The notes beneath the pieces were generated by a model that did not search any database, had not been told where the DNA came from, and saw nothing but the letters and a program-made list of their open reading frames with translations. The translations under genes and the position numbers were made by a program. A DNA stretch of 49,291 bases, from positions 1 through 49,291 of the forward strand of contig JAJFGG010000033.1 in the NCBI GenBank assembly GCA_021776235.1. Reading direction: 5' to 3'. How positions within the stretch are numbered: position 1 is the first letter of the stretch; the number at the start of each line of letters is the position of its first letter. This document shows positions 407 through 17,381 of this stretch, one piece after another. The DNA comes from Alphaproteobacteria bacterium. Lineage in GTDB: Bacteria > Pseudomonadota > Alphaproteobacteria > GCA-2731375.

Positions 407-1837
407 TTAATTCAGCCGGACATATTCGAAATCGATGGGTTGATTATTGATGCCGCGGGCGGGCGGGGCGATCCAGCCGGCGTATTTGCCTGGCTCCGTG
501 ACCGGCTGCATCAAGCCAATAACATAAGCGCGGTCGGCCTCAGTGGGCAGCCAGTCGCCATGCTTCTGGGTCCATTCGGCCTCGGTAATGACCTGGCCCT
601 CGGGGCTGACCCGCACGCCTGAGGTATTCGCGAGATTGAAACTGCCGATCTGGCGGTTGAAGGCACGATGGGGCAGTTTCAATTGGAAATCGATACCCTG
701 ACGCTTGATAATCTGGTTCCACCGCCGGACGCCACGGTCACAATCAGTGACATAGTCATCGCGCAGGCGTTCGTTGATGACCGTCAGGGCGTTATCCTGG
801 TTGGTGACGAATTTTTCGCCCTCCAATTCCAGGATGGGATACAGCGCATCACCCAGGGTGTGATCGTCGTCGATCTTGGTTTCTTCGAAACGGCCCTTCA
901 GTCCCATGGAATAGAAGTTCGCCGCATTGGTTGACCGTTCGGAACCGAACAGGTCAAGAGAAACAGAGAAATGGAAATTGAGGTATTTCTGCAGGGTCGG
1001 CAGATCGATGCCGCCCATTTTGCGGACCTGGTCTTCACCATGCTCCTTCATCAATTCACAGGCCCGCTGGATGACCCGGCCGACGCCGGTCTCGCCGACG
1101 AACATATGATGGGCTTCCTCTGTCAGCATGAAACGGCAGGTGCGCGATAGGGGGTCAAAGCCGCTTTCGGCCAGGGAAGCCAACTGGTACTTGCCGTCCC
1201 GGTCGGTGAAGTAGGTGAACATGTAAAAGGACAGCCAGTCGGGGGTTTTTTCGTTGAAGGCGCCCAGAATGCGCGGCTTGTCCGGGTCACCCGAATGCCG
1301 TTGCAGCATCTCGTCGGCCTCTTCCCGGCCATCGCGGCCAAAATAGCCGTGCAGCAGGTAAACCATGGCCCACAAATGCCGTCCTTCCTCCACGTTAACC
1401 TGAAACAGGTTGCGCAGGTCATAAAGGGACGGCGCCGTAAAGCCCAATTGCCGTTGCTGTTCCACCGAAGCTGGCTCGGTATCGCCCTGGGTGACGATCA
1501 GGCGGCGCAGCATGCCGCGGTATTCGCCAGGCACATCCTGCCAGGCGTCCTCGCCCTTGTGCTCGCCAAAATTGACCTTGCGGCCTTCCTCGGGCTCGGC
1601 GAGAAAAATGCCCCAGCGGTATTCGGGCATTTTCACATAGCCGAAATTCGCCCAACCTTTGGCATCGACGCTGATCGCGGTGCGCAAATAGACGTCGTGT
1701 TTTTGAAATTCGGTCGGCCCCATTTCAGCCCACCATTTTTGATAGTTCGGCTGCCAGGCCTCCAAGGCCCGTTGCAGGCGGCGGTCTTCCGATAGATCGA
1801 CGTTATTGGGAATGCGTTCCTGATAATCAATGGCCAT
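407..1837 (-). CDS. boxB: BoxB, diiron benzoyl-CoA 2,3-epoxidase (oxygenase subunit)
   Basis: A 476-residue protein that inserts one oxygen atom of O2 into benzoyl-CoA to give the 2,3-epoxide, normally with electrons from the reductase BoxA. A four-helix diiron pattern is visible: E121, the ExxH pair E151/H154, D212, and the second ExxH pair E241/H244 (in TEEAHHMF). Length and the opening MAIDYQERIPNNVDL fit the family. An in-frame ATG 16 codons upstream exists, but the start at 1837 is preferred because AAAGGAGGG stands just upstream. That ribosome binding site lies inside the last codons of boxC, whose TGA is only 4 nt from this ATG, so translation is probably coupled. The gene is last in the boxC-boxB operon. 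No BoxA gene is found in the window. Confidence 0.95.
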   Translation of the reverse strand: MAIDYQERIPNNVDLSEDRRLQRALEAWQPNYQKWWAEMGPTEFQKHDVYLRTAISVDAKGWANFGYVKMPEYRWGIFLAEPEEGRKVNFGEHKGEDAWQDVPGEYRGMLRRLIVTQGDTEPASVEQQRQLGFTAPSLYDLRNLFQVNVEEGRHLWAMVYLLHGYFGRDGREEADEMLQRHSGDPDKPRILGAFNEKTPDWLSFYMFTYFTDRDGKYQLASLAESGFDPLSRTCRFMLTEEAHHMFVGETGVGRVIQRACELMKEHGEDQVRKMGGIDLPTLQKYLNFHFSVSLDLFGSERSTNAANFYSMGLKGRFEETKIDDDHTLGDALYPILELEGEKFVTNQDNALTVINERLRDDYVTDCDRGVRRWNQIIKRQGIDFQLKLPHRAFNRQIGSFNLANTSGVRVSPEGQVITEAEWTQKHGDWLPTEADRAYVIGLMQPVTEPGKYAGWIAPPARGINNQPIDFEYVRLN

Positions 1838-1841
1838 GGGG

Positions 1842-3491
1842 TCAGACCCTCCTTTTATCGAATTCGCTACGTTGGCCGCTGCCATACAGCGGCAGAGCGC
1901 CGGTTTCGCCGACCGCGTTGGGGCGCTGGAATATCCAGTTCTGCCAGGCGGAGAGGCGCGAGAAGATTTTGCTTTCCAGGGTTTCCGGTCCGCCGAAGCG
2001 CAGGTTCGCCTCCATGCCGGTCAATGCATCGGGAGAGAAGGCGGCGCGTTCTTCAATCGCTATGCGTATCTCGTCCTCCCAATCAATATCGTCGGGGGCG
2101 AAGGTGACGAGGCCGGCGTCTTCCGCCGCAAGGGCATCCATGGCCTCGCCCTGGCGCTGTTCCAGGGCCGAGACCGTATCCGCATCGTCCAGGAAACGGG
2201 ACTGCAGCCGGGTCAGCCCATTGACCATATCATAGGAACCAAAGTTCATGGCGGTCAGGGACATCGTGGCCGGGGGCCGGTTGTCGCCTTCGAACTGGCC
2301 ATCAAGCATGTAACTGCGGTCGGCGGCCAGGGCCAGTTCCAGCAAGGTGCCGGTAAAACAGGACGCCGGTTCGATTACGGCGAAGATGCTACGGGATGTC
2401 ACATCGATGCGTTTCAGGGTGCGTTTCAGATACAGGGTCACTTCGCGCACCAGCCAATGATCCTGGTTGGCGGCCATGATTGCATCATGCGCGGCGACCA
2501 GTTCGCTATCGCCGCTGGTATGGAACAGCCAGGTGCCGATTTCGTTCTCGTTGCTGCGCAGATGCAGGATCGCATCGTCCAGTTCGCGCGCCAGCCGCAG
2601 GGGCCAGTAGTCGGCGCCCTGAGTTTGGATGGCATCCGTATCTGCCGGCGGCGCCTGGATCGGCGCCTGCACGGCCAGGCTGGCGGTGCGGGCAATTCGG
2701 TCAATCTCCACCGCCAGGGTGGAATAGCGGATGCTGTCGCCATCGATGGTGCGTTGCAACGGTGTCAGGGCTATACCCTGACCTTCGGCCGGACGGTCCG
2801 AAGCGGCCACCGCCTGGGCCGCGCGGGCGGCCACGGCGTCATCGTATTTGGAGCGTGGCGCGATCTCGTCAATCAAGCGCCAGTCCACGGCGCGTTGGCC
2901 GCGGATGCCCTCTTCCAGGGTACAGAAGAAATCCGCCCGGTCGCGCCGCACCTTGCGCTTGTCGGACAGACGGGTCAGTCCGCCGGTGCCGGGCAACACC
3001 GCCAGCAGGGGTACTTCGGGCAAAGACACGGTGGTGGCGCCGTCGTCGATCATGACAATCTGATCGCAGGCCAGGGCCAGCTCATAGCCTCCGCCGGCGC
3101 AGGGGCCGTTGACGGCGGCGATATAGATCTGCCGCGAATGGGCGGAGGCGTCTTCGATACTATTGCGGGTCTCGTTGGTGAATTTGCAGAAGTTTACTTT
3201 ATGGTCGTGTGATGAGGTCGCCAGCATGCGGATATTGGCGCCGGCACAAAAAATTCTGTCCTTGGCCGAGGTCATGACAACAGCCGCCACTTCCGGATGC
3301 TCAAAGCGCAGGCGCTGCACTGCATCGTAAAGTTCGATGTCTACGCCCAGGTCGTAGGAATTCAGCTTCAATTCATAACCGTCCCGCAGACCGCCGCCTT
3401 CATCAACGGCCATGGCCAGGGTGGCCACGCGGCCGTCGATGGACAATTGCCAATGGCGGTAGGACTCCGGATTCGTGCGGAATTCAATCAT
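1842..3491 (-). CDS. boxC: BoxC, 2,3-epoxybenzoyl-CoA dihydrolase (benzoyl-CoA-dihydrodiol lyase)
   Basis: A 549-residue crotonase-superfamily enzyme. It adds water to 2,3-epoxybenzoyl-CoA and cleaves the ring to 3,4-dehydroadipyl-CoA semialdehyde, releasing formate. The N-terminal half carries the enoyl-CoA-hydratase oxyanion-hole segments FCAGANI (about 81-87) and NGPCAGGGYEL (about 128-138). The long C-terminal half is typical of BoxC and makes it about twice the size of an ordinary crotonase. I chose the ATG at 3491 (MIEFRTNPESYRHW) over one 17 codons upstream, because the upstream part would run through the promoter and because GGGGA precedes the chosen start. It is the first gene of the boxC-boxB operon, and its final codons hold the boxB ribosome binding site. 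Confidence 0.95.
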   Translation of the reverse strand: MIEFRTNPESYRHWQLSIDGRVATLAMAVDEGGGLRDGYELKLNSYDLGVDIELYDAVQRLRFEHPEVAAVVMTSAKDRIFCAGANIRMLATSSHDHKVNFCKFTNETRNSIEDASAHSRQIYIAAVNGPCAGGGYELALACDQIVMIDDGATTVSLPEVPLLAVLPGTGGLTRLSDKRKVRRDRADFFCTLEEGIRGQRAVDWRLIDEIAPRSKYDDAVAARAAQAVAASDRPAEGQGIALTPLQRTIDGDSIRYSTLAVEIDRIARTASLAVQAPIQAPPADTDAIQTQGADYWPLRLARELDDAILHLRSNENEIGTWLFHTSGDSELVAAHDAIMAANQDHWLVREVTLYLKRTLKRIDVTSRSIFAVIEPASCFTGTLLELALAADRSYMLDGQFEGDNRPPATMSLTAMNFGSYDMVNGLTRLQSRFLDDADTVSALEQRQGEAMDALAAEDAGLVTFAPDDIDWEDEIRIAIEERAAFSPDALTGMEANLRFGGPETLESKIFSRLSAWQNWIFQRPNAVGETGALPLYGSGQRSEFDKRRV

Positions 3492-3525
3492 TCGGTCTGG
3501 TCCCCAATATCTCGTTTGTCCGGTT

Positions 3526-3576
3526 CTGCACCCCAATTGCAATAGGCATTATAATGCATAATATCGAAAGTTCAAG
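3526..3576 (-). promoter_or_regulatory. boxCB promoter with overlapping TGCA operator
   Basis: On the minus strand TTGAAC (3570-3575) and TATAAT (3548-3553) are separated by 16 nt, a near-consensus sigma-70 promoter about 50 nt ahead of the boxC ATG. The spacer ends in the palindrome ATGCAT (3554-3559), directly against the -10 box. Two more TGCA tetramers lie at 3538-3541, about where transcription would start, and at 3527-3530. Operators of the BzdR/BoxR regulators are built of TGCA repeats, so this is the likely BoxR site. Binding here would cover the -10 box and start point, which fits repression relieved by benzoyl-CoA. The promoter is direct reading; BoxR binding is inference. Confidence 0.65.
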
Positions 3577-4532: not shown

Positions 4533-7500
4533 CTAGTTTAAACGTCCCAGGGCCTTGGACATCAGCATGTATAATTTGCCCACATCCGAGGATAACAGCA
4601 CCGCCGCCAGGATATCTTCGGGATCGTTCTCCTCGGCCTGCGCCAATGCTTCCTGGAACTGGACGAGATAGCGGTCTACGTGCTCGCGGAAACCGTCGTC
4701 ATCTTCGTAATTGTTCCGGATGGCCTCCAGGGAGAAGCGGTCGCGGTTGCGCACAATGCGGCGGGCGAAAATGCCGCGGTCGCCGTCCAAATAGCGTTCC
4801 CAGGCATCCTCGGGCACATTCTTTTCCAACGCCCGGTCAAGATCAATGGCCAGGGAATTCATGCGCTCTGTCACAAAAGCCATATTGCGCATAAAGGCTT
4901 TGCGCCGGTTCGAGGCGCTGTTCTCTTCGATATTGGCCGCATCCGTCATAGCTTGTTCGCTGATCTGGCGCAATTCGTCGACCTGGCGGCGATAGGTGGC
5001 GCTGACCGATTCCGCGGCCTGGCCGGTACGCTCGGTCAATTGTTCCAATTCACCGGCGTTTTGGGCCAATTGTTCGCCCAGGCGCAACAGCCGCTTTTCG
5101 CTGCCCTTGGCCTGATCGGACAACTCATTCACCGCCAGACGCAAATCCTTGCTCAATTCGGCGATTTGCTGCGACAGCCGGTTGGATTCATTACGCAGCT
5201 CATTGCCCTGACCAGCCATGTCCTGACCGGCTGCTTTTAGCCTTTCGGCGCCACGCTCACCCGCCGCCGCGACATTCTGTATTTCCTGGCGAAAGGCAAT
5301 GCCGGCGCCCAGAATTCGCGTTGCCTCACGATCAGAGGTTTCATTCAAGGCGGTGGAGGCATTGTCGAAGCTGATATGGGCGCTGCGTAAACGGGCCGCC
5401 GCTTCGTCCGCCGCCTCCGCCACGCGGGAGGTGCCCCGGCCCAAGACATCAATGGCTTCGGCCAAATCGGACTTTGATTGGACCGCCACCGCGCTCATTT
5501 GATTGGCCCGCTGCTGAAGCGCATCGCTGACACCACCCGACTGCTGGCTCAGGGCTTGGCTTTGCTCCACGAAACGGGCCAGGGATGTTTCGATGCGCGC
5601 CGTCGCCGCCGCTGCCACGTCGTTCAGTTGATCGCCCTGCCCGCGCAGGGACTGCGCCAGACCGGCCATGTTCTCAACTGCCTTTGTGGAGGTGCCCTCC
5701 GCTTGTGCGCTGCCCTGGCTCAATAAGTCCATGATCTGGTTCAGATAGACCCCGCCCTTGGTGGTAGCCGCGCCCAGGGTCTCGAGTTCCCCGTGCAGCG
5801 CACTGCTTGCTTTGGCCAGGTCATCCAGTGCCGAGGATGATGCCTGGTCCAGGGCATCTGTACTTTTCTCCAAAATGGCCTCTATCTGGCCGGCCCGTTC
5901 TGCAATCGCAGTGGTGACTTTCTGCAAGGCCTCGGCCCGGCCGCTCAGATCCTGGCTCAGACGCGCCGTTCGTTTCTCGGCCATGTCGGCGGTTTCTTCC
6001 AGCACCGCGGCATGCTGCTGCATGGTGGCGCCCAGGGCCGTCGCTTCGGCCTGAACCCGGTCCGTGGCCGCGGTCAGGTGTTGCGCGTTCTGGCGTAGGG
6101 TTTCCCCGGTGGCGTCCACCGCCGCATTGGCCTGCCGGGCCGCCGCCGTGACGCCATCAGCCTCTTCCCGCAGGTTGGCGGTGGTATTGTGTATTTGTGT
6201 CAAGGCACGCTCGCCTTCGACGGCCAGGGTGTCGGCGGCCTCCAGGTATGCCGCTTCCGTGGCGCGCATTTCCGCCGCCGCCGCAGTCCCGGTCTGGGCC
6301 AGACCGGCAATGCGCTCTTCCAGTTGCCGCCCCGCCCCTTCGGTTCGCGCGGCCGCGGCCGTTACGCCTTCGATGCCTTTGTCCAGAACGGATTGTACGG
6401 CCTCGATACGTTGCCCTGCGGTGTCCGCGGTGCTGGCCACCCGATCGGTTGTCGCCTGGGCGATCTGCCGCAAATTGGTTTCCGCACCTTCGGTTAGTTC
6501 GCTAAGGCGTCGTTGCGCGGTACTTGTCAGGTCGTCAATGTGCAAGTCCGTGCGTTGGGTAAAGTTATCGATCCGTTCCTCAACCGTGCCGGCCATGGCA
6601 TCGATTCGGTCCTCGGCGCTGCTTGTCAGGTCCTCAATTTGCCCGGACGCGGCGTCGGTAGAGGATTGCATTCGGCGCATGGCCTGTTCGAGGCCTTCGC
6701 CGGCCTCGCCCACGGTTGCCGCCGATTGCCGTGAAGCGGCGGCGATGGCTTCGGCCCGGGCGTTCAGATGCTGGCTGGCCTGGCCAATCTGCTGGTCTGC
6801 TTGCTTGGCGGCCTGCACCACCTCTTCCGCCGTTGCCGCGAATTGGCCGCCCGCGTCGGCAATCCGTTCCCCGGCCTTTCCGGTGGTAGCATCTAGGATT
6901 TCCAGATTTTGTTGCACCCGAGCCTCTATGCCGTGGGATATGGTCTCCACCTCGCTGGAAAGCTGACGCAGGCTGCTGCCGTCCCGGCGCATGGCTTCGC
7001 CCGTGCGCTTGGCCTCGGCCCCGATCTGGGCCGAGACTTCCTGCAGCCATTCACCTTCCTGATGCAAGTTCTGGTGCATCTCGCCGCCGCGGTTAATCAT
7101 ATCATCAACCGCCTGGCTCAAATCCGCGATCTGGGCCTGCAATCCGGCTTCCATCGTACTGGCCTGGCCGATGGTGCGTTGCGCCAGGCTCTCCAGATTT
7201 TCCACGATGTCCGTGATCCGCGCCTCGAACTCCTGGCGGATGGCCTCAGCGGATTGGCTGGCATCCTGGCCAATTTTATCCGTGTTTCCCGCGACGGATT
7301 TGCCAATTTCGTCAATACGTTGCTGAAAGGCATTACTCAACGCCAAGGCATTCAGGGCGGCTTGACGCGAGGCATCCTCGGAATAGCTGGTGACCACCGC
7401 GGCGCCGTCCTTGAAGGATTGCCCGATTTCCTCGGTGCGGCGCGTGACGAAACTGGCAATTTTGTCTGTCTCGCTGGCGATTTGCAGCGTGCGTAGTTTG

Positions 7501-10301
7501 AACGCCTGGGCCACTGCATCGGCCTTGGATTCTCCGAGGCGGGCGCTGTCTTCAACAGCATTGTTGAAGGCCTCGGCCCGGCCTCGCAATTCGGCTTCAA
7601 CCTTGGTCACCGTGGCGCGCAGGTCATCAACCGTACCCTCGGCAAGGGTTAAAAGTTGTCCGCGCCGGGCGTCAAGGTCGGCCAGCAAGGCATCAATCCG
7701 TTCGGCGGCATGATCGGTCATGCGGTCGGCGGTCCGCCGTGCCTCATATTCTTCTTCCCGCAGGCGCTCGGAAATCACCTCGGCGTGTTGCGAGACATCC
7801 GAAGTGATGCGCCTGGCCACATCCGCCAGCGCGGTGGCGCGCGCGTCCACATTCGATTGCAGGTTGGACCAGTCCTGATCGATCCCGTCGATGGTACGGT
7901 TCATATCGCCGCTGACCCGTTCGATGCGCGACAGCAGGGTCGCGCTCAATTCCTCCAGGCGGTGCACGGTTTGTTCCGTGGCCGTGGTGGTGGCTGTGCG
8001 CAAATCGTCCGTCTGGGCACGAATACGGTCGCCGGTATCGCTCACACGGGTTTCCAGCCGGTCAATTGTCAGATCGATTTCCTGTCCCAGTTTGCCGACG
8101 GTCTGGCGCACCCCGTCGGCCATCTGATCGGCCTGGCCGGCGACGGTTTTTTGGGTCTCGGCCGAGGTTGCTTCGATGCCCTGCAATTGCCGGGCGTAAT
8201 GCTGTCGCAATTGTTCGGCGCTGGCTACGGCCTGGTCGGTCATCTCGCCGGTACGCACCAGCAACTGGTCCAGGGAGTGGCTGTAGTCCTGACCCATCTG
8301 ATCCACGACGTCGCGTACGCCGTCGGCCATTTCACCGGAGCGCCAGACGACGGTTTTCTGCGTCTGGACCGACGTCTGGTCAATTCCGGCCATCTGCTCG
8401 CCGAAATGCCGGCGCATATGTTCGGCCTGGGCCATGGCGTTGGAAGTCATTTCGCCGGTACGGAATTCCAGGCGGTCGACGGAAAGATTGAAGTGATCGC
8501 CAAGATCGTTGAGATTTTGTTCGATGCCATCGGCCAGACGGTCGGCGCGGCCGGCCAAGGCGCCGTGGGCCTGGTCCGTCGATTGTTCGATGGCGGCCAA
8601 TTTTTCCAGATACTGCAGACGCAATTGCTCTACCCGTTCCAGGGTGGTGTCACGCAGGTCGTCGGCGCGGTTGTTCAGGCCGTTGATGGATTGATCGAAG
8701 GCCTCGGTCATGAGGTTTAAGTTTTGCCGCATATGGCCGGCCATACGTTCGCTTTGTCCTGCTATGGCGGCCTGGATCTGGGCCGATTGCTTCTCAATCT
8801 CGGCCAGTTTGGCGCCATAATGCTGCTGCATTTCATCAGCCCTTGCGGCAGCGGCTTCGGTCATCTTGGTGCCGCGGCCGGTCAGGTCATCGATGTTCTG
8901 ATCGAAGCGTTTCGCCATTTGCTCCAGGCTTTGGGTCAGGTCCTGGGCCAGTTTTTCACCGCGCTCGGAAATGGCTATTTGGCTTTCGTCCGCGCTTTGG
9001 CCGATGGCGTTCAGTCTGGCTTCAAAATGCCGGCCGATGCTATCGGCCCCGGCCATGGCCTCGTCCTTCATGCCGCCGGCCCGCTCTGTCAGGTGGTCGA
9101 TGACGGTGTCAAAATCAGTCTCCACATGGGCCAGATTCTGCTGCAGGTCCGCCGCCATCTGCGCACTGCGGGTCGCGATGGTCGTTTGTGTCTGTTGGCC
9201 GGTGCGCTCGATCTCGTTCAGGCGGGCGCCATAATGCTGGCGGATTTGATCGGCCCGCGCCATGGCTTCTTCGCTCCAGGTCCCCGCCCGGTTATCCATA
9301 TGATCAATGGTCTGGGCGAACTTCTGATCCATTTCATTGGCGTTGTGGCTGATGCCATCGGCCATTTTATTGACCCGCTGGGACAAATTTTGCTGCGCCT
9401 GCTCGGCGTTCCGCTCTATTTCTGCCAAGCGGGCGTCGTAATGCTGGCCCAGACGGTCGGCCTGGCCCATGGTGCTTTCGGTCAGAGCCGTGGCCCTTGC
9501 CTCGGCCCGGTCCATGGCCTCGGCCAATGCTTCCGACTGTGCGTTGAGGACGCTGGCCACGTCTTCAGCGCGATGTTGCGATTGTGTAACCGAGGCCTCG
9601 AAATTACCGGACTGTTCCAATAATAATCCGTTAATCCGGCCGCCCTGTTCAGTCAGGCGTTCAGCTGCGCCTTCCAGGGCCCGCGCCCGCCCGCCCAATT
9701 CTTCGACCAAGGCTGCGGTGCGGGCGTTGGAAGAGGTCGAGCTGCGGCTGATATCTTCGACCCGTTGGCGCAACAGGCTTTCGACCTGACGCACCTGATC
9801 GGTGGCCTGCTCTGACGCCTGGGTCAATTCCTCGGCCTGGCGGCGCAGGGCGGTCGAGATCATTTCGATGCGGGCGCCTGCCTGATCGTCGGGATAAGTC
9901 AGACGCCGCAGTTCCGCCTGCAGCGCGGCGGCATGGTCAGTCATTTCGCTGCCTCGACGCAGATAAAATAATGCCAGCCACAGGACACCCAACGGAGCGA
10001 AGACAGCGCTAAGTACCGAAGCCAGTTCGTGGGGCAGGAGAAAGGCCAGGGCGTCCCAACCGACATAGCCGGTAACATAACTGACGCAAACAATCAGCCA
10101 GACCAGGGTGATCACCAAACCGATCATCAAGCCGCGGTGGAAATTGACTTCCCGTGGGGACCACCATCTTGGCGGCGGCGCGCCCGAGCCGCCGCCTGGC
10201 CCGCCGCCATAGCCGCTGCCACGCCCGTCGCGCTCACGCTCCCGCTCGACAGCCTCGGCCGGGATCGGCAATTGGGTAATCTGTGTTTCTATCTGCGGCA
10301 T
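4533..10301 (-). CDS. Giant TipN-like coiled-coil membrane protein (1922 aa)
   Basis: The protein has a Gly/Pro/Arg-rich cytoplasmic start (1-50) and two membrane helices at about 57-80 and 96-114. Roughly 1,700 residues of predicted coiled coil follow, rich in Ala, Glu, Gln and Arg. Residues 275-757 are seven tandem 69-residue repeats. A distinct, more hydrophobic C-terminal domain (about 1790-1922) contains NSLAIDLDRALEKNVP and ends LYMLMSKALGRLN. This design, two N-terminal helices anchoring a long cytoplasmic coiled coil, is that of TipN, the new-pole marker of Caulobacter, but this protein is about twice as long. The function is therefore inferred: spatial organisation at the cell pole or envelope. 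It lies 37 bp after an exported-protein gene and abuts the DMT gene. Chemoreceptor-like stretches are only coiled-coil similarity; no HAMP or signalling tip is seen. Confidence 0.7.
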   Translation of the reverse strand: MPQIETQITQLPIPAEAVERERERDGRGSGYGGGPGGGSGAPPPRWWSPREVNFHRGLMIGLVITLVWLIVCVSYVTGYVGWDALAFLLPHELASVLSAVFAPLGVLWLALFYLRRGSEMTDHAAALQAELRRLTYPDDQAGARIEMISTALRRQAEELTQASEQATDQVRQVESLLRQRVEDISRSSTSSNARTAALVEELGGRARALEGAAERLTEQGGRINGLLLEQSGNFEASVTQSQHRAEDVASVLNAQSEALAEAMDRAEARATALTESTMGQADRLGQHYDARLAEIERNAEQAQQNLSQRVNKMADGISHNANEMDQKFAQTIDHMDNRAGTWSEEAMARADQIRQHYGARLNEIERTGQQTQTTIATRSAQMAADLQQNLAHVETDFDTVIDHLTERAGGMKDEAMAGADSIGRHFEARLNAIGQSADESQIAISERGEKLAQDLTQSLEQMAKRFDQNIDDLTGRGTKMTEAAAARADEMQQHYGAKLAEIEKQSAQIQAAIAGQSERMAGHMRQNLNLMTEAFDQSINGLNNRADDLRDTTLERVEQLRLQYLEKLAAIEQSTDQAHGALAGRADRLADGIEQNLNDLGDHFNLSVDRLEFRTGEMTSNAMAQAEHMRRHFGEQMAGIDQTSVQTQKTVVWRSGEMADGVRDVVDQMGQDYSHSLDQLLVRTGEMTDQAVASAEQLRQHYARQLQGIEATSAETQKTVAGQADQMADGVRQTVGKLGQEIDLTIDRLETRVSDTGDRIRAQTDDLRTATTTATEQTVHRLEELSATLLSRIERVSGDMNRTIDGIDQDWSNLQSNVDARATALADVARRITSDVSQHAEVISERLREEEYEARRTADRMTDHAAERIDALLADLDARRGQLLTLAEGTVDDLRATVTKVEAELRGRAEAFNNAVEDSARLGESKADAVAQAFKLRTLQIASETDKIASFVTRRTEEIGQSFKDGAAVVTSYSEDASRQAALNALALSNAFQQRIDEIGKSVAGNTDKIGQDASQSAEAIRQEFEARITDIVENLESLAQRTIGQASTMEAGLQAQIADLSQAVDDMINRGGEMHQNLHQEGEWLQEVSAQIGAEAKRTGEAMRRDGSSLRQLSSEVETISHGIEARVQQNLEILDATTGKAGERIADAGGQFAATAEEVVQAAKQADQQIGQASQHLNARAEAIAAASRQSAATVGEAGEGLEQAMRRMQSSTDAASGQIEDLTSSAEDRIDAMAGTVEERIDNFTQRTDLHIDDLTSTAQRRLSELTEGAETNLRQIAQATTDRVASTADTAGQRIEAVQSVLDKGIEGVTAAAARTEGAGRQLEERIAGLAQTGTAAAAEMRATEAAYLEAADTLAVEGERALTQIHNTTANLREEADGVTAAARQANAAVDATGETLRQNAQHLTAATDRVQAEATALGATMQQHAAVLEETADMAEKRTARLSQDLSGRAEALQKVTTAIAERAGQIEAILEKSTDALDQASSSALDDLAKASSALHGELETLGAATTKGGVYLNQIMDLLSQGSAQAEGTSTKAVENMAGLAQSLRGQGDQLNDVAAAATARIETSLARFVEQSQALSQQSGGVSDALQQRANQMSAVAVQSKSDLAEAIDVLGRGTSRVAEAADEAAARLRSAHISFDNASTALNETSDREATRILGAGIAFRQEIQNVAAAGERGAERLKAAGQDMAGQGNELRNESNRLSQQIAELSKDLRLAVNELSDQAKGSEKRLLRLGEQLAQNAGELEQLTERTGQAAESVSATYRRQVDELRQISEQAMTDAANIEENSASNRRKAFMRNMAFVTERMNSLAIDLDRALEKNVPEDAWERYLDGDRGIFARRIVRNRDRFSLEAIRNNYEDDDGFREHVDRYLVQFQEALAQAEENDPEDILAAVLLSSDVGKLYMLMSKALGRLN
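8031..9479 (-). repeat. Seven tandem 69-residue (207-bp) repeats inside the coiled-coil gene
   Basis: Residues 275-757 divide into seven units of exactly 69 residues with no gaps. They start ESTMGQAD, EEAMARAD, DEAMAGAD, EAAAARAD, DTTLERVE, SNAMAQAE and DQAVASAE. Shared positions include an RxHY/F-like segment near residue 11, LxxIE near 18, a Gln near 29, an Arg then MA near 35-40, a FDxxID-like segment near 54 and an R-x-x-x-M near 64. The units have diverged in sequence but not in length, which suggests selection on a fixed rod spacing. Downstream repeats lose this phase. Confidence 0.85.
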
Positions 10302-10980: not shown

Positions 10981-11165
10981 GCCCCATTGTCACTGACTGT
11001 GGGCCTCAGGTCAAAGCATGGCTTGGCCGCGCGAAGTGCTGTTTCCAAAGGTGTCGGTGGCGCGTGGCGGCTATCAATACCTGAGGAAGGCATCTAAACT
11101 GTCCCGTCACGGCGGTGGACTTGGCTTGAAACGACCTGTCCGCCCCAATGGGGGAGACGCAGGCA

Positions 11166-13382
11166 ATGACCGTACGGACCATATACGAGGCGCCGCGCCC
11201 GGCGGCCCGGCCGGAGGAAACCATCGTAACCAGTACCTGCGGCCATAATTGCGGCGGACGTTGTGTGGTCAACGCCCACGTGCGTCAGGGCCGGATAACC
11301 AGAATTTCCACGGATGCCCGGCGCTGGAACCCGGAACATCCGCCGTTGCCGGCTTGCGCCCGTGGCGTGGGTCAGATCGAGCGCACATATCACCCCGACC
11401 GGCTGCAATATCCCATGCGCCGCACGGGGCCGCGTGGGTCCGGCCAGTTCGCCCGCATTTCCTGGGACGAGGCCTTGGACGAAGTGGCGGCCCAGTTATT
11501 GCGCGTGCGCCAGACCTGGGGCAACGCGGCCATACTCGACGGTTCACGCTCGGGCACCCTGTCCATGTTGCATGGCAGGGGCCCCGCCAAGCGCTTTTTG
11601 CATCTGTTCGGCGGCTGCACGAATTTGTGGTCGAATATGTCGTGTGAAGCGGAGATTTTCGCCGTGCGCGCCACCTATGGCCCGGAAACCTCCTACAAGG
11701 CGGCCGGCCGGGAACCTACCGACTATGTCAATTCGAAGTTGATCTGGATGTGGGGCTGGTCGCCGGGTGACGGAACCTTTGGCACGGGCACCATGCAGTA
11801 TCTAAAGCACGCGAAAGAACAAGGCGTGCGCATTGTCTGTATCGATCCGCGCCGGACCCGCACCTCGGCCCAGTTGGCGGACGAGCATATCTTCATTCGC
11901 CCCTCCACCGATACCGCCGCGCTGATCGCCATGACCTATGTGATCGTCAGCGAAGGCTTGCATGATCAAGCCTATTGCGACCGGCACGTCCAGGGCTTTG
12001 ACGAGGCCACCCTGCCTGCCGGCGCACCGGCCGGTGCCTCCTATCGGGCCTATCTGATGGGCGAGGGCGACGGTATCGCCAAGACACCGGAATGGGCCGC
12101 CGGGATTACAGGTATTCCCGCCGCGACGATCCGACGCCTGGCCGTGGAATTCGCCAGCACCAAGCCGGCGGCCTTGCAGGCTGGATACGCGCCGGGGCGA
12201 ACGGCCTTTGGCGAACAGTTCCATCGAGCGGCTTATGCCCTGGCAGCGATCACTGGTAACGTGGGCGTCACCGGGGGCAATTCCGGCGTCAGCAATGGCG
12301 CCACTGGGAACAGCTATTTTCAGGCCTTTCCAGTGGGACGAAATCCGGTAACGTCGAATGTTTCCGCGCCGCTGCTGGCCGATCTGTTGGTGCGCGGCAA
12401 AAGCGGCGGCTATCCAGCGGATATCAAGCTGATCTATTCGGCGGGTGGCGATCTGTTTAATCAATGTCCGAACGCCGCGAAAACGGCCAAGGCATTGGAC
12501 AGCGTCGAATTCATCGTCGGCCAGGACCATTTTCTTACCCCGACCACCCGCCATGCCGATATCGTATTGCCGGCCACGACATTTTGGGAACGCAACGACG
12601 TTCACACGCCGTGGGCCGGTGCGGGTCACTACGCGATCTTCATGGGCCAGGCCATAGAGCCGATGTACGAATGCCGCAACGACCTGGATATCTTCTCGGA
12701 TTTGGCCGAACGCGTGGGCATCGAAGGCTATAACAACAGAGAGGAAGGGGATTGGCTGCGCCAACTGACCAAGGGCACGGTGGATGATTTTGATACCTTC
12801 AAGGCGCAGGGCGTGGCCCGCTTTCCGGCGCCAGCGGATGCCGTGGCCTTCGCCAAGCAGATCCGTGAACCTGAGACGCATAAGTTTTCCACGCCATCGG
12901 GCAAGATCGAAATTTACGCCAGCGCCATTGCCGAAAACCCCAATCCTTATGGCCTGGGCGCCATTGCGCCAATCCCGACCTGGGTCCCACATTTGGATCA
13001 CGACGGCGCCTATCCGCTCCGCCTCTGCAGTCCGAAATCAAGGGCCCGCACTCATTCCATTCACGGCAATCAGGAAAAGCTGGCCAGGGTTGACCCGGAT
13101 GATCTGTGGCTGCACCCCGGTGACGCCGCGGCGCGGGGTATACACGATGGCCAGATGGTCCGGGTCTTCAACGGCCAGGGCGCGACGGCCTTGCCGGCCA
13201 AGGTGACGGAAAATATCGCGCCCGGGGTGGTTTCCATCAAGGAAGGCGCTTGGTTCACTCCGGACGCAGAGGGCATCGACACCGAAGGGTGCGCCAATGC
13301 CGTGACCCTTGACCGCTCCGCACCCAGCGGTGCGACTACCTACAACACGAACTTTGTCGAGGTGCGGCCGGTCAATAGTTAA
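11166..13382 (+). CDS. Cytoplasmic DMSO-reductase-family molybdoenzyme, orphan catalytic subunit
   Basis: A 738-residue bis-MGD molybdoenzyme. An N-terminal [4Fe-4S] site is visible as C25-x3-C29-x3-C33 with C64. The molybdopterin domains follow with typical segments (RISWDEALDEVA, CIDPRRTRTS, a C-terminal SPKSRARTHSIHGN). Aligned to DmsA, the molybdenum-ligand position falls on the Ser of NMSCEAEIF, followed directly by a Cys. The start at 11166 is preferred to the ATG at 11148 because GGGGGAGA lies about 8 nt ahead of it. No twin-arginine signal is present, unlike DmsA, and no electron-transfer (DmsB) or membrane (DmsC) gene is adjacent. Substrate unknown; hydratase and transhydroxylase members of this family also lack such partners. 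It is convergent with boxR, so a role in aromatic metabolism is possible. Confidence 0.85.
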   Translation: MTVRTIYEAPRPAARPEETIVTSTCGHNCGGRCVVNAHVRQGRITRISTDARRWNPEHPPLPACARGVGQIERTYHPDRLQYPMRRTGPRGSGQFARISWDEALDEVAAQLLRVRQTWGNAAILDGSRSGTLSMLHGRGPAKRFLHLFGGCTNLWSNMSCEAEIFAVRATYGPETSYKAAGREPTDYVNSKLIWMWGWSPGDGTFGTGTMQYLKHAKEQGVRIVCIDPRRTRTSAQLADEHIFIRPSTDTAALIAMTYVIVSEGLHDQAYCDRHVQGFDEATLPAGAPAGASYRAYLMGEGDGIAKTPEWAAGITGIPAATIRRLAVEFASTKPAALQAGYAPGRTAFGEQFHRAAYALAAITGNVGVTGGNSGVSNGATGNSYFQAFPVGRNPVTSNVSAPLLADLLVRGKSGGYPADIKLIYSAGGDLFNQCPNAAKTAKALDSVEFIVGQDHFLTPTTRHADIVLPATTFWERNDVHTPWAGAGHYAIFMGQAIEPMYECRNDLDIFSDLAERVGIEGYNNREEGDWLRQLTKGTVDDFDTFKAQGVARFPAPADAVAFAKQIREPETHKFSTPSGKIEIYASAIAENPNPYGLGAIAPIPTWVPHLDHDGAYPLRLCSPKSRARTHSIHGNQEKLARVDPDDLWLHPGDAAARGIHDGQMVRVFNGQGATALPAKVTENIAPGVVSIKEGAWFTPDAEGIDTEGCANAVTLDRSAPSGATTYNTNFVEVRPVNS

Positions 13383-13416: not shown

Positions 13417-14316
13417 TTAGGGATTATTCTTGTCCCTGTTCGGCACCATTTTGACCAATTCGTCCAGGCAGGCGTCCAGAGCGCGGGCCGTGGTGTCCAG
13501 GGTGGTATCGGCCTTGCGGTACAGGCTTTCGCGGCCATCCAGGATGCGGTGCAGATCTTTCATGGCTTCCCGGTTGCCGGCCATGGGGCGCTGGTCGCCC
13601 TGCGCCGCCACCCGGGCCATATGCTCCTCGGGTGAGGCTTGTAGCCAGATGGTGTAGCAAGAAGAGAGCAGGCGTTCATAGGTGCCGGGTTCGGTGACCA
13701 GGCCGCCGCCTGTCTCCAACACCGCCCTGGGATAGGCCTCGATCACCTGTTCCAGGCATTGCCGTTCCAGCCGGCGATAAGCGGTCCTACCAAGTAAATC
13801 AAAGATCTCGTCCAGGCCCATGCCGGCCTCTTCCTCTATCTGTCTGTTCAACTGCACGAAGGGCAGATCCAGGCGCTCGGCCAGGGCGCGCCCCAGGGTG
13901 CTCTTGCCTGCGCCACGCAGGCCGATCAAGGCGATGCGGCCGTTTTCCATGGCCTCTGGCGTATAACGCTGGCGCAGATAGCGATGCAAATCGGCCAGGT
14001 CGTCGCTGTTCAGTTCGGCCAGTTGCTCTAGAATCAAGGCCATTTCCACCGGCCGGTCCGGGCCGTCCTGAACCAGTTCCGAGAGCGGTAGATGCATGGC
14101 GGATGCGATTTGCCGCAACAGGATGATCGAGACATTGCCCCGGCCGCTTTCCAGTTGCGCCAGATAGCGCTCGGACACCCCGGATTCGGTGGACAAAATC
14201 TTGCGAGTCATGCCGCGCCGGGCCCTGGCGCCGCGCACCCGGTCGCCCAACAGGGCCAGATAGCGGCCATCGTCGTCGGCTCTTTCTGCCTGATCCTGTT
14301 CCATACGATGCTGCAT
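13417..14316 (-). CDS. boxR: BoxR, benzoyl-CoA-responsive regulator (HTH + shikimate-kinase-like domain)
   Basis: A 299-residue regulator. An XRE-type helix-turn-helix (about 24-82, with TESGVSERYLAQLESGRGN) is followed by a linker and a shikimate-kinase-like domain. That domain holds an intact Walker A loop, GLRGAGKST (132-140), and continues with ETGGGLV and an RPMAGN lid-like segment. This fusion is characteristic of BoxR and the anaerobic BzdR, in which the kinase-like domain binds benzoyl-CoA rather than making shikimate phosphate, and the protein represses until the ligand is present. It is divergent from the flavodoxin-ligase operon over a 155-bp space with TGCA sites, and convergent with the molybdoenzyme. 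An ATG four codons in (MEQDQAE) is an alternative start. Confidence 0.93.
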   Translation of the reverse strand: MQHRMEQDQAERADDDGRYLALLGDRVRGARARRGMTRKILSTESGVSERYLAQLESGRGNVSIILLRQIASAMHLPLSELVQDGPDRPVEMALILEQLAELNSDDLADLHRYLRQRYTPEAMENGRIALIGLRGAGKSTLGRALAERLDLPFVQLNRQIEEEAGMGLDEIFDLLGRTAYRRLERQCLEQVIEAYPRAVLETGGGLVTEPGTYERLLSSCYTIWLQASPEEHMARVAAQGDQRPMAGNREAMKDLHRILDGRESLYRKADTTLDTTARALDACLDELVKMVPNRDKNNP

Positions 14317-14471
14317 GGTTGCCTCGTCGCCATGAATTCGCTACCGATTAGGCATTGGAGCATAAGCTCGCAAAATATGCATTATATTTCTTTTTTTCTG
14401 TTTATCGAATAGAAAATGCAGTATAAATCATTTCTGCCTCTGGAAATTGACCAATAGAATTTGGGGGACGA
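14317..14471. promoter_or_regulatory. Divergent boxR / flavodoxin-ligase control region with TGCA palindrome
   Basis: An AT-rich 155-bp space between divergent genes. On the minus (boxR) strand TATAAT is followed directly by GCAT, placing the palindrome ATGCAT (14377-14382) against a likely -10 box. The 11-mer TATAATGCATA is identical to one in the boxC promoter. A second TGCA (14417-14420) immediately precedes TATAAA on the plus strand, a possible -10 for the flavodoxin operon. I found no convincing -35 boxes for either direction. The most likely reading is a BoxR operator that autoregulates boxR and controls the ligase operon. Binding is inference. GGGGGA ahead of the flavodoxin ATG is its ribosome binding site. 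Confidence 0.55.
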
Positions 14472-14930
14472 ATGGCGAAATCCATCACCATATTGATAGG
14501 CACCATCACGGGAACCGCTGAATTGGTGGCGGAAGATGTTGCGCCGGTGTTGGAAGAAGCCGGTTACGATGCCGCGATGCTGGATATGGACGGCCTGACG
14601 CCGGATGTGTTGTGCGAAAACGATCTGGTCCTGATCTGTACTTCGACCTATGGCCAGGGCGATGTGCCGGACAATGCCATGGAGTTGTACGAGGCGTTGG
14701 CCGAACAGCGGCCGGACCTGTCGAACTTGCGTTATGGTATGATCGGTTTGGGCGACAGCACTTACGCTGATACCTACAACCAGGGCAGCGCGCGGTTCGA
14801 CGTTCTGTTGCGGGAATTGGGGGCGCAACGGATCGGCGAAGTCATGCGCCACAATGCGTCAAGCGATGAACTGCCGGAAGAAGCAGGTGTCGTCTGGGCC
14901 AGGCAATGGGTCGAAATTCTGGCCGAATAG
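14472..14930 (+). CDS. Flavodoxin (MioC-like short-chain FMN protein)
   Basis: A 152-residue single-domain flavodoxin. The FMN phosphate loop TITGTAE (11-17) comes straight after the first beta strand. The isoalloxazine-facing loops appear as TSTYGQGDVPDN (57-68) and GLGDSTYADTYNQG (92-105), as in MioC and the flavodoxin domains of sulfite reductase. It would carry one or two electrons between a reductase and an oxidase or oxygenase in the cytoplasm. It is the first gene of the flavodoxin-ligase-hydrolase operon, 30 bp before the benzoate-CoA ligase and divergent from boxR, which implies expression on benzoate. With no BoxA in view, it is a candidate electron donor for BoxB; that link is a hypothesis. 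Confidence 0.88.
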   Translation: MAKSITILIGTITGTAELVAEDVAPVLEEAGYDAAMLDMDGLTPDVLCENDLVLICTSTYGQGDVPDNAMELYEALAEQRPDLSNLRYGMIGLGDSTYADTYNQGSARFDVLLRELGAQRIGEVMRHNASSDELPEEAGVVWARQWVEILAE

Positions 14931-14960: not shown

Positions 14961-16547
14961 ATGACGAGCGGCTACAGCACCTTTGATTTGTCCCAGGATC
15001 CACCTTTGGTCACCGTGCCGCAAGACTATAACCTGGCCGTGGATTTTCTCGACCGGCGGATTGACGAGGGCTTTGGCGATAAGGTTGCCTTTATCGATGC
15101 TGAGGGCAGCCACACATACGGTGCGTTGCAGGACAGCGCCAACCGCTTTGGCAATGCGATGCTTGATTTGGGGCTGCAGTCGGAGCAGCGTGTCATGCTG
15201 TTGCAGCTGGACAGTATTGATTTTCCCATTGCCTTCTTTGGCGCCATCAAGGCGGGCCTGGTGGCGGTGCCCGTCAATACACTGCTGACCACCGACGATT
15301 ATCAATACATGCTGCGGGACTCCCGGTCCCGTGCCCTGGTCGTCAGCGCCGAACTGTTGCCTGTCGTTGCACCAATCCTGGATCAATTGCCTGATCTGCG
15401 CCATATCATCGTGACGGGTACGGGTGAGTTGGCAGGGCATGCAAGCATGGCCGCCACCTTGGCGGGCGCAGACCCGGCGTTGCAGGCGGCTGCGACTTCC
15501 GCGGATGACGTGGCTTTCTGGCTCTATTCCTCCGGTTCCACGGGACGCCCCAAGGGCGCGCCGCATCTGCAGAGCGATATGATCAACACAGCGGTTCTCT
15601 ATGGCCTGGGCGTATTGGGCATTCGACCGGATGACGTGGTCTATTCCGCTGCCAAGTTGTTTTTTGCCTATGGTCTGGGGAATGCTCTGACCTTCCCCAT
15701 GATGGTTGGGGCTACCTCCGTTCTGATGGCAGGCCGGCCGACGCCAGAGGCCGTGATGGCTCGTATAAAGGACAACGAGGCCAGTATTTTCTATGGCGTA
15801 CCCACCCTGTATGCGGGCATTCTGGCCGATGACGGCATCGGCTGCGAAGCGTCCTCGCCGCGTTTGCGCCACTGCGTTTCCGCCGGCGAGGCCTTGCCGG
15901 AAGATGTCGCCAAACGTTGGGCAGAACGTTTTGGCGTGGAAATTCTGGACGGTATCGGCTCAACCGAGATGTTGCATATCTTCGTTTCCAACCGGCCCGG
16001 ACAGGTGCGTTACGGCAGCACTGGGATGCCGGTTCCGGGTTATCGCTGCCGCCTGACGGATGATGCGGGTGTGAACGTGGCCCCGGGCGAGATCGGTGAT
16101 TTGTTGGTCAGCGGACCATCATCGTCTCCCTATTATTGGAACAACCGGGAAAAAAGCATCGCCACTTTTGAAGGCGCCTGGACTCGTACCGGCGACAAAT
16201 ATTTCTGCGATGAGGACGGCTATTTCGTTTATGCGGGCCGCACCGATGATATGTTGAAGGTAGGCGGCATTTGGGTCTCACCGTTCGAGGTGGAATCAGC
16301 CCTGACGGCCCATGACAGCGTTTTGGAAGCAGCTGTTGTCGGGCACGCCGACAGCGATCAACTGATTAAGCCGAAGGCCTTTGTGGTTCTTCAGGCGGGT
16401 GGCGGCGACGCGGATCAGGCGTCCGCGCTGCAACAATTCGTCAAGGACCGTTTGGCGCCCTATAAATACCCGCGTTGGGTGGAATTTGTCGACGAACTGC
16501 CAAAAACCGCGACCGGCAAGATCCAACGTTTCAAGTTGCGCGGCTAA
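14961..16547 (+). CDS. bclA: Benzoate-CoA ligase
   Basis: A 528-residue ANL-superfamily ligase that converts benzoate, ATP and CoA to benzoyl-CoA, AMP and pyrophosphate, the entry step of the box pathway. The adenylate P-loop YSSGSTGRPKG spans 189-199. The A5-type motif is GIGSTEML, the ATP-ribose motif is TGDKY, the hinge region is GRTDDMLKVGGIWVSP, and the C-terminal catalytic lysine is K520 in TGKIQR. The segment AKLFFAYGLGNALTFP is typical of the benzoate/hydroxybenzoate ligase group. GGGAGG precedes the ATG. It lies between the flavodoxin and hydrolase genes (30- and 27-bp gaps). Substrate preference within benzoates (hydroxy-, fluoro-, aminobenzoate) cannot be read, but boxB/boxC/boxR nearby support benzoate. 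Confidence 0.92.
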   Translation: MTSGYSTFDLSQDPPLVTVPQDYNLAVDFLDRRIDEGFGDKVAFIDAEGSHTYGALQDSANRFGNAMLDLGLQSEQRVMLLQLDSIDFPIAFFGAIKAGLVAVPVNTLLTTDDYQYMLRDSRSRALVVSAELLPVVAPILDQLPDLRHIIVTGTGELAGHASMAATLAGADPALQAAATSADDVAFWLYSSGSTGRPKGAPHLQSDMINTAVLYGLGVLGIRPDDVVYSAAKLFFAYGLGNALTFPMMVGATSVLMAGRPTPEAVMARIKDNEASIFYGVPTLYAGILADDGIGCEASSPRLRHCVSAGEALPEDVAKRWAERFGVEILDGIGSTEMLHIFVSNRPGQVRYGSTGMPVPGYRCRLTDDAGVNVAPGEIGDLLVSGPSSSPYYWNNREKSIATFEGAWTRTGDKYFCDEDGYFVYAGRTDDMLKVGGIWVSPFEVESALTAHDSVLEAAVVGHADSDQLIKPKAFVVLQAGGGDADQASALQQFVKDRLAPYKYPRWVEFVDELPKTATGKIQRFKLRG

Positions 16548-16574: not shown

Positions 16575-17381
16575 ATGGTAAGCAACTTTGACTATATAGA
16601 GGCGGCCGGCCAGCGTTTGGAATGCGCCTGGCTGGGGCCCGCCCCATGCACCGATCCCGCCGGTCCGCCGACCCTGGTTTTCCTGCACGAAGGCCTGGGT
16701 TGCGTCGCCCTATGGCGTGATTTCCCGGCTCAATTGGTTGCCGCCACCGGCCTTGGCGGTCTTGTCTATAGCCGCCAGGGTTATGGCGGCTCCGACCCCT
16801 GCGCACTGCCACGGCCCATAACCTATATGCATGACGAAGGTTTGCGGGTTCTGCCGGCGCTGTTGGCCGCCGCCGGCATCAAGCGGACCATCCTGGTCGG
16901 CCATTCCGATGGCGCTTCCATCTCGCTGATCTACGCGGGCGGCACCCCGGCCACGGCGTTGGACGGTTTGATCCTCGAGGCGCCCCATGTATTCATGGAA
17001 GAATGCAATGCGGCCAGTATCGCCAGGGTGCGGGAAACCTATGCCACCGGAGATTTGCGACAGCGTCTGGCGAAATATCACGGCGACAATGTGGATTGCG
17101 CCTTTCGCGGCTGGTCAGAACCCTGGTTGGGAAAGGGCTTCAGCAGCTGGAATTTGGAAGAGTATTTACCCAATATCTGCGCCCGCAAGCCGGTGCCAAC
17201 CCTGGTGATCCAGGGTACTGACGACGAATACGGCACCATCGCCCAGTGCCAGGCCATTGAACGGGGCATTGGGGCGGAAACTAGAACTCTGTTTTTACCT
17301 GATTGCGGCCACGCCCCGCACAAGGATCAGTTCAAACAGACCCTGGCAGCCATGGTCGCGCATATTGATGGTATCGTCTGA
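16575..17381 (+). CDS. Alpha/beta hydrolase of the box operon
   Basis: A 268-residue alpha/beta-hydrolase fold protein. The nucleophile elbow is GHSDG, the acid is probably in QGTDDEYG, and the histidine is in DCGHAPH. An oxyanion segment HEGLG lies near residue 38 and the SRQGYGGSD motif follows. Hydrolases with this profile sit in several aromatic-degradation operons, where they act on lactones, ring-cleavage products or CoA thioesters. Here the 27-bp distance to the benzoate-CoA ligase and the shared promoter suggest a role with CoA intermediates, perhaps removing dead-end thioesters or hydrolysing a lactone formed from the epoxide. The true substrate is unknown. It is the last gene of this operon. 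Confidence 0.85.
   Translation: MVSNFDYIEAAGQRLECAWLGPAPCTDPAGPPTLVFLHEGLGCVALWRDFPAQLVAATGLGGLVYSRQGYGGSDPCALPRPITYMHDEGLRVLPALLAAAGIKRTILVGHSDGASISLIYAGGTPATALDGLILEAPHVFMEECNAASIARVRETYATGDLRQRLAKYHGDNVDCAFRGWSEPWLGKGFSSWNLEEYLPNICARKPVPTLVIQGTDDEYGTIAQCQAIERGIGAETRTLFLPDCGHAPHKDQFKQTLAAMVAHIDGIV

Follow-up and report, generated by a model that had tools for sequence, protein, structure and literature searches.

A BoxR-linked flavodoxin as a candidate electron carrier to benzoyl-CoA epoxidase in an alphaproteobacterial box cluster without a recognizable boxA

Introduction

In the BoxAB system of the Azoarcus/Aromatoleum evansii type, BoxA has been characterised as an FAD protein that is specific for NADPH, carries two [4Fe-4S] clusters, is required in minor amounts and does not co-purify with BoxB (PMC4498308). 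The same source describes PaaE, the reductase of the related CoA-thioester epoxidase for phenylacetyl-CoA (PaaA and partners), as a protein that combines a flavin domain with a ferredoxin-like [2Fe-2S] domain. A study of the betaproteobacterial BoxR regulon deals with operons of the boxCBA type, and the word flavodoxin is absent from its main text (PMC6449761). Where BoxA is missing, the cluster has been read as incomplete (e.g., the chromosomal copy of P. xenovorans; PMC10803450), and a paper on UBA5794 actinobacteria lists boxBC and leaves boxA unnamed in that listing (PMC12008989). The closest working precedent for a flavodoxin that carries electrons to one monooxygenase is P450cin, where the chain runs from NADPH through cindoxin reductase and cindoxin (a flavodoxin) to P450cin; the mitochondrial system presented in the same article pairs a P450 with a [2Fe-2S] adrenodoxin (PMC9687028).

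The stretch of DNA analysed here (49,291 nucleotides; hereafter the window) is one whole contig of an alphaproteobacterial genome (G000:C101). Its box genes resemble the BoxAB system in that BoxB and BoxC score far above their curated cut-offs, and in the divergent arrangement of boxR and bclA, which is known from the published regulon (PMC6449761). The locus differs in that no BoxA over the cut-off is present, and a flavodoxin together with an FprA-type reductase are the candidates for its place. Such a role for the flavodoxin would parallel that of cindoxin, whereas the acceptor would be a diiron epoxidase with a CoA-thioester substrate and not a cytochrome P450. No report of a flavodoxin proposed for BoxB was found in the open-licence PMC literature. 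To our knowledge, flavodoxin donors are known mainly with P450s.

A box locus without a recognizable boxA

The features of the window are collected in Table 1. The likely start of boxC is the ATG at 3491, given that the profile match begins at residue 19. Since the contig ends 406 bp past boxB, the contig alone cannot exclude a boxA gene. In the whole assembly (6.36 Mb in 174 contigs, 98.4% complete), none of the 22 candidates, all of which were scored, exceeds 44.5 bits with the boxA model TIGR03224, whose cut-off is 459.2; a divergent boxA elsewhere in the genome was considered and rejected, the four matches being all partial and at most 44.5 bits. The first-pass annotation had described the locus as boxCB without boxA, and this description extends to the family, where boxB is present in all 15 genomes (this one, 10 congeneric species and four others), on contigs of 134–522 kb in four of them, and boxA over the cut-off in none. 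The boxA model is sensitive: of the 32 boxB genomes to which it was applied, four readily gave a boxA over the cut-off adjoining boxB. With one defining part missing, the locus is a variant of the box pathway cluster.

Table 1. Genes and putative operator half-sites of the box locus (window coordinates)
Feature	Position	Strand	Remarks
boxB, benzoyl-CoA 2,3-epoxidase subunit	407..1885	-	TIGR03225, 863 bits (cut-off 499.1)
boxC	1842..3542	-	TIGR03222, 949.9 bits (cut-off 712.3)
BoxR-type half-site ATGCATTATA	3550..3559	-	~60 bp before the likely start of boxC
boxR-type repressor	13417..14316	-	299 aa; NF006015 (benzoate-regulator family), 400.4 bits (cut-off 204)
BoxR-type half-site ATGCATTATA	14377..14386	+	boxR-flavodoxin intergenic; exact ATGCANTATA; conserved in relatives
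BoxR-type half-site ATGCAGTATA	14416..14425	+	second site, 39 bp after the first
Flavodoxin	14472..14930	+	152 aa; PF00258 Flavodoxin_1, 92.2 bits (cut-off 25); heads an apparent fld-bclA-hydrolase operon
bclA, benzoate-CoA ligase	14961..16547	+	528 aa; TIGR02262, 770.9 bits (cut-off 375.25)
Alpha/beta hydrolase	16575..17381	+	268 aa; PF12697, 48.3 bits

Among the genomes of the class that carry boxB at the curated cut-off (81 genomes, three weaker ones of 84 having been dropped), 67 are without a boxA match, where a match means E 1e-30 or better and includes one genome below the curated cut-off (G243, 415.9 bits). The textbook donor BoxA is thus the exception among the class genomes sampled, most records being metagenome-assembled genomes, with the best four candidates (boxA and FprA-type) or the best 10 (flavodoxin) scored per genome. 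One record that is 68% complete (G078; L112, which is G078:C308, and G078:C324) contains more than one boxB, one of them adjoining boxA, and on another, short contig a box-type flavodoxin; this genome may have both systems.

The flavodoxin and its operon

The flavodoxin gene leads the apparent benzoate-CoA ligase operon, as the first-pass annotation had it, with 30 bp between its stop and the start of bclA, and it lies divergent from the boxR-type gene, whose product combines HTH_3 with a shikimate-kinase-like domain (PF01202) in a Pfam profile search. The alpha/beta hydrolase that closes the apparent operon may be the lactone hydrolase of this pathway. The label MioC-like given to the flavodoxin at first pass is apt in that its nearest NCBIfam models are PRK08105 (130.9 bits, cut-off 160) and MioC (115.6 bits, cut-off 158). 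It differs from these short flavodoxins in scoring below both curated cut-offs and in its conserved box-gene context, and its scores, the operator sites and that context led to the rejection of a housekeeping MioC as the sole reading. The best solved relatives of the flavodoxin profile are, in order, 2m6r (flavodoxin), 2hna (MioC) and 4oxx (cindoxin, E 1.9e-30). The family alignment contains the conserved loops GTITGTAE, TSTYGQGD and GLGDSTY, found in 80, 80 and 78 of the 85 members examined, respectively, and the protein is predicted to bind FMN.

A molybdopterin oxidoreductase (11148–13382; 609 bits to the DMSO/selenate reductase family, under the cut-off of 777.7) adjoins boxR here and in the nine other genus members with this stretch fetched; formate dehydrogenase is listed in a published BoxR regulon (PMC6449761), and this gene might have that role. 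Between boxC and boxR, positions 4533–10301 encode a protein of 1922 aa with a repetitive, long coiled-coil-like sequence, homologues of which occupy the same position in the genus with variable length.

BoxR-type operator sites

According to a footprinting study, BoxR recognises the palindrome ATGCACTATAGTGCAT at multiple sites, mainly 3–5 DNA turns apart (PMC6449761). The sites of the present locus match one half of the ATGCACTATAGTGCAT palindrome, the second half being imperfect, and are predicted to be bound by BoxR. The window contains three exact matches to ATGCANTATA versus 0.14 expected, one before boxC and two between boxR and the flavodoxin, while the looser pattern TGCANTATAAW with one mismatch shows no enrichment in the window (five found versus 2.54 expected; 12 of 100 shuffles as high). 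Paired TGCANTATA sites, 39 bp apart, occupy the boxR-flavodoxin intergenic region in the window, in all 10 other family genomes fetched and in G015, and a TGCANTATA site is found ahead of boxC in all eight flavodoxin-bearing family genomes with that stretch fetched. In three family genomes that lack a flavodoxin match, boxC was fetched as well; a site precedes it in G012 and G014 and none does so in G013. Of the 71 boxR-flavodoxin intergenic stretches examined in named genomes, 63 contain a half-site in either direction (29 with at least two), whereas random stretches taken from these loci give an expectation of 1.8.

Across the 6.36 Mb of the genome, WWTGCANTATAWW has five matches: one before boxC, two before the flavodoxin and two elsewhere. 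The reversed WWTGCANTATAWW pattern has four matches, so there is no genome-wide excess, only a concentration at the box locus. Of the two other sites, one lies at an apparent rimP-nusA and one has no evident benzoate link, as judged from reading the open reading frames only; both look incidental. On that reading, the genes adjoining them do not resemble boxA; a boxA elsewhere under the same operator was what the first-pass annotation had named as a refutation. Half-sites are common to the flavodoxin and boxC, and the flavodoxin is divergent from boxR, in keeping with the earlier proposal that the flavodoxin-bclA operon is apparently under BoxR control.

Distribution and phylogeny of the flavodoxin

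The flavodoxin is present in 10 of the 11 genomes of the genus (counting the present one; only G002 lacks it, and there boxB lies at the end of a contig) and in one of the four other family members, and it is directly divergent from boxR in all 11 of these family genomes. A profile built from 20 members (A1) and run on 385 genomes of the class found 39 genomes at 170 bits or more, a limit that sits between the box clade (at least 171.7 bits) and a sister group of 10 class genomes at 143–161 bits, two of which are also in the group over the limit; the remaining non-sister matches are below 106 bits. Flavodoxins over this limit occur in 33 of the 81 class genomes with boxB versus 6 of the 304 without it.

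A second sample consisted of the best 80 of 188 flavodoxin loci from a collection of named genomes, about 10 of which apparently represent the family genomes again and whose record titles name Alphaproteobacteria, Betaproteobacteria and Acidobacteriota. Within these best 80 loci, boxR lies within 400 bp of the flavodoxin in 72 and some box gene lies alongside it in 75; bclA is seen in 59 loci, boxB in 47, with many of the loci truncated, and a homologue of the alpha/beta hydrolase in 45, several of which are truncated. Conservation of the flavodoxin in related genomes, a check that the first-pass annotation had called for, is thus seen next to boxR in relatives, and ahead of bclA in most loci. 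Because 72 of the 80 best named-genome relatives adjoin boxR, the flavodoxin can be regarded, on this genomic context, as dedicated to the box pathway.

A tree of 106 flavodoxins, made with a 'quick' method, unites the box group in a single clade of 82 rows (support 88), with two long rows (G097 and G211) falling outside it; the sister clade has a support of 99. Six flavodoxins without an adjoining box gene (G094, G127, G229, G393, G209 and G301) fall inside the box clade, suggesting that box genes were lost or relocated there. In three of these genomes (G094, G127 and G229; loci L143, L144 and L145), the box-type flavodoxin and a hydrolase form a pair without boxB, divergent from an aconitase gene, and G393 (L146) has a similar flavodoxin and hydrolase pair. 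In a plasmid collection, 111 records had a flavodoxin match, all below 60% identity (the 25 listed at no more than 43.2%), and 11 records had boxB, nine of them from Mycetohabitans.

A candidate reductase

An FAD/NAD(P)H-type protein of 325–467 aa adjoins boxB in several loci. The one member searched, which follows boxB in G289, matches adrenodoxin reductase (1cjc, E 8e-70) and FprA (1lqt, E 1e-55), and differs from these in having BoxB and the flavodoxin as its genomic neighbours. Among the 37 named loci with room after boxB, the next gene is FprA-type in seven, boxA in five and neither in 25; clustering of the next 2.2 kb in these 25 recognised no shared reductase. The combination of boxA and an FprA-type gene is found in none of the 80 named loci, and the boxA genomes G418 and G436 have an FprA-type reductase elsewhere in the genome. 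An FprA-type reductase following boxB in some clusters, at the place that boxA takes in others, is a new observation.

Within the class, an FprA-type gene lies on the same strand no more than 2.2 kb after boxB in nine of 81 genomes, eight of which have the flavodoxin. The copy in G376 contains an in-frame stop; in G362, an FprA-type gene follows boxB and there is no box flavodoxin match; and in G211, which is without boxB, the FprA-type gene is 181 bp from the flavodoxin. Anywhere in the genome, FprA-type reductases are found in 52 of the 67 boxB genomes of the class that have no boxA, in 5 of the 14 with boxA and in 38 of the 304 without boxB, these counts being uncorrected for kinship. They are also found in 34 of the 39 class genomes with the flavodoxin and in 14 of the 15 family members. 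A cultured carrier of the flavodoxin, Desertibaculum subflavum SYSU D60015 (locus L216), apparently corresponds to G106, in which boxB and an FprA-type gene are present and no boxA exceeds the cut-off. In the present genome the reductase is represented by two contig-end pieces (G000:C20:3-374 and G000:C171:2-925), near which the whole-genome scan for WWTGCANTATAWW found no operator site. The first-pass annotation had suggested that the flavodoxin could replace the ferredoxin part of BoxA, and a flavodoxin can indeed stand in for the carrier half only; the reductase half of BoxA is probably represented by a separate enzyme of the adrenodoxin-reductase/FprA type.

Two genomes of one genus (G206 and G298) have a Fer2/FNR reductase after boxB (L169:9115-10080, with a homologue at L179:6107-7132) and no boxA, box flavodoxin or FprA match. 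It is possible that this reductase is a third type of donor.

Co-occurrence of boxA, flavodoxin and reductase

Replacement of BoxA by the flavodoxin does not hold as a strict rule. The two genes occur together in five clusters titled Betaproteobacteria or Burkholderiales (L249, L262, L270, L276 and L281), and boxA is present in 9 of 42 flavodoxin genomes not titled Alphaproteobacteria, i.e., those of the 80 named loci whose titles do not name an alphaproteobacterium (some of these titles look wrong, and the genomes are of unstated completeness); the flavodoxin therefore does not simply exclude BoxA. Eleven of the 42 have an FprA-type reductase and 24 have neither boxA nor an FprA-type gene, so that another reductase must act in these 24 if the model is right. 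Within the class, 37 of the 67 boxB genomes without boxA are also without the box flavodoxin. An FprA-type reductase is found in 26 of these 37, and may thus serve another carrier there; seven have a sister-clade flavodoxin; G206 and G298 have the Fer2/FNR reductase after boxB, and G362 the FprA-type gene; and in the rest a motif scan of called open reading frames found no clear local donor near boxB. Six class genomes have the flavodoxin without boxB.

The association of the flavodoxin with absence of boxA among class boxB genomes (30 of 67 versus 3 of 14) is not significant (p = 0.14). On a BoxB tree of 105 rows, made with a 'quick' method, the state of boxA changes only four times, with three supported pairs, and independent contrasts of boxA against flavodoxin are therefore powerless. 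The tree over-represents the flavodoxin, since 26 of its rows come from genomes fetched via the flavodoxin; six boxA genomes out of 14 (G167, G181, G209, G277, G301 and G354) are missing from it, as are the flavodoxin genomes G198, G291, G368 and G389, and G007 and G324, in which boxB was unfetched or cut.

Sister flavodoxins and PaaA-like proteins

The sister flavodoxins are divergent from a PaaA-like protein of the diiron family in 5 of 10 genomes (G092, G197, G100, G135 and G380), at L114:9655-11041 in G092 and also in L154, L105, L156 and L157. The PaaA-like protein contains PF05138 in the one case tested, and the proteins score 54–77 bits to the PaaA model TIGR02156 (cut-off 280); a canonical PaaA over this cut-off is present in none of the 10 sister-clade genomes. 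The one cluster annotated gene by gene, the phenylacetate cluster of G092 (L114), includes PaaN, PaaK, PaaI and 3-oxoadipyl-CoA thiolase over their cut-offs. In G080 and G199 the neighbour of the sister flavodoxin is an enoyl-CoA hydratase-like gene, G223, G292 and G369 being outside the annotation on which the neighbour survey rests. The position of a flavodoxin beside a second enzyme of the superfamily supports the general idea of a flavodoxin donor. We suggest, tentatively and as somewhat short of probable, that a second type of benzoyl-CoA epoxidase is widespread, in which BoxB works with a flavodoxin under BoxR control and an enzyme of the adrenodoxin-reductase type instead of BoxA, and that flavodoxins of this group were recruited twice to diiron epoxidases of CoA thioesters, by BoxB for benzoyl-CoA and by a PaaA-like single-subunit enzyme in genomes lacking canonical PaaA.

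Proposed electron path and alternatives

We consider it fairly probable that the flavodoxin is dedicated to the box pathway, is regulated by BoxR, receives electrons from NADPH through an FprA-type reductase and in turn feeds the diiron centre of BoxB. NADPH would reduce a separate FAD reductase, most likely the FprA-type enzyme encoded elsewhere in this genome; the reductase would pass electrons to the flavodoxin as FMN carrier, and the flavodoxin would deliver them to the diiron centre of BoxB. Two proteins would then do the job that BoxA, with its FAD and two [4Fe-4S] clusters, does as one. A soluble flavodoxin that has its own reductase would be a reasonable functional substitute for BoxA. 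We infer this path and its direction; the gene identities, the boxA matches below the cut-off, the linkage, the operator motif, the flavodoxin clade and the FprA-type genes after boxB are directly observed.

The operator sites of the flavodoxin and its adjacency to boxR, which recur across Alphaproteobacteria, Betaproteobacteria and Acidobacteriota (as given in record titles), suggest a pathway-specific role and not one in general iron stress. They argue against the view that BoxB is fed by general ferredoxins or flavodoxins, with the box flavodoxin serving as an auxiliary or iron-sparing protein and not as the main donor. That view is unlikely, even though it gains from the 37 of 67 boxA-less boxB genomes of the class that have no box flavodoxin, from the five clusters in which boxA and the flavodoxin coexist, and from G206 and G298, which carry the Fer2/FNR reductase by boxB instead. 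Alternatively, the flavodoxin could serve some other BoxR-controlled enzyme in the metabolism of benzoate or a benzoate derivative, since its operon is shared with bclA and the hydrolase and not with boxCB, the flavodoxin-hydrolase pair is kept without boxB in four genomes (G094, G127, G229 and G393), and in G209 the pair is ~66 kb from a boxA-type cluster. This is decidedly improbable, as the flavodoxins of all five genomes and of G301 belong to the box clade, only G097 and G211 standing outside, and no other recurring adjoining oxygenase was noticed in an unsystematic reading of the loci.

The chance that the flavodoxin is incidental, and that a divergent boxA or an equivalent reductase is located elsewhere or in an assembly gap, appears very slight. 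While the end of the contig so close to boxB, in an assembly of 174 contigs at 98.4% completeness, leaves room for such a gene, boxA over the cut-off is absent from all 14 other family genomes, including four with boxB on contigs of more than 130 kb, and the flavodoxin is both conserved and operator-linked.

Implications

For this organism, the inference of the first-pass annotation that a flavodoxin could replace the ferredoxin part of BoxA is the best reading, now extended by a candidate reductase and by the operator link. With a donor named, the aerobic benzoyl-CoA pathway would become predictable in these bacteria, and working clusters would no longer be scored as incomplete. The system would also represent a flavodoxin-driven diiron monooxygenase.
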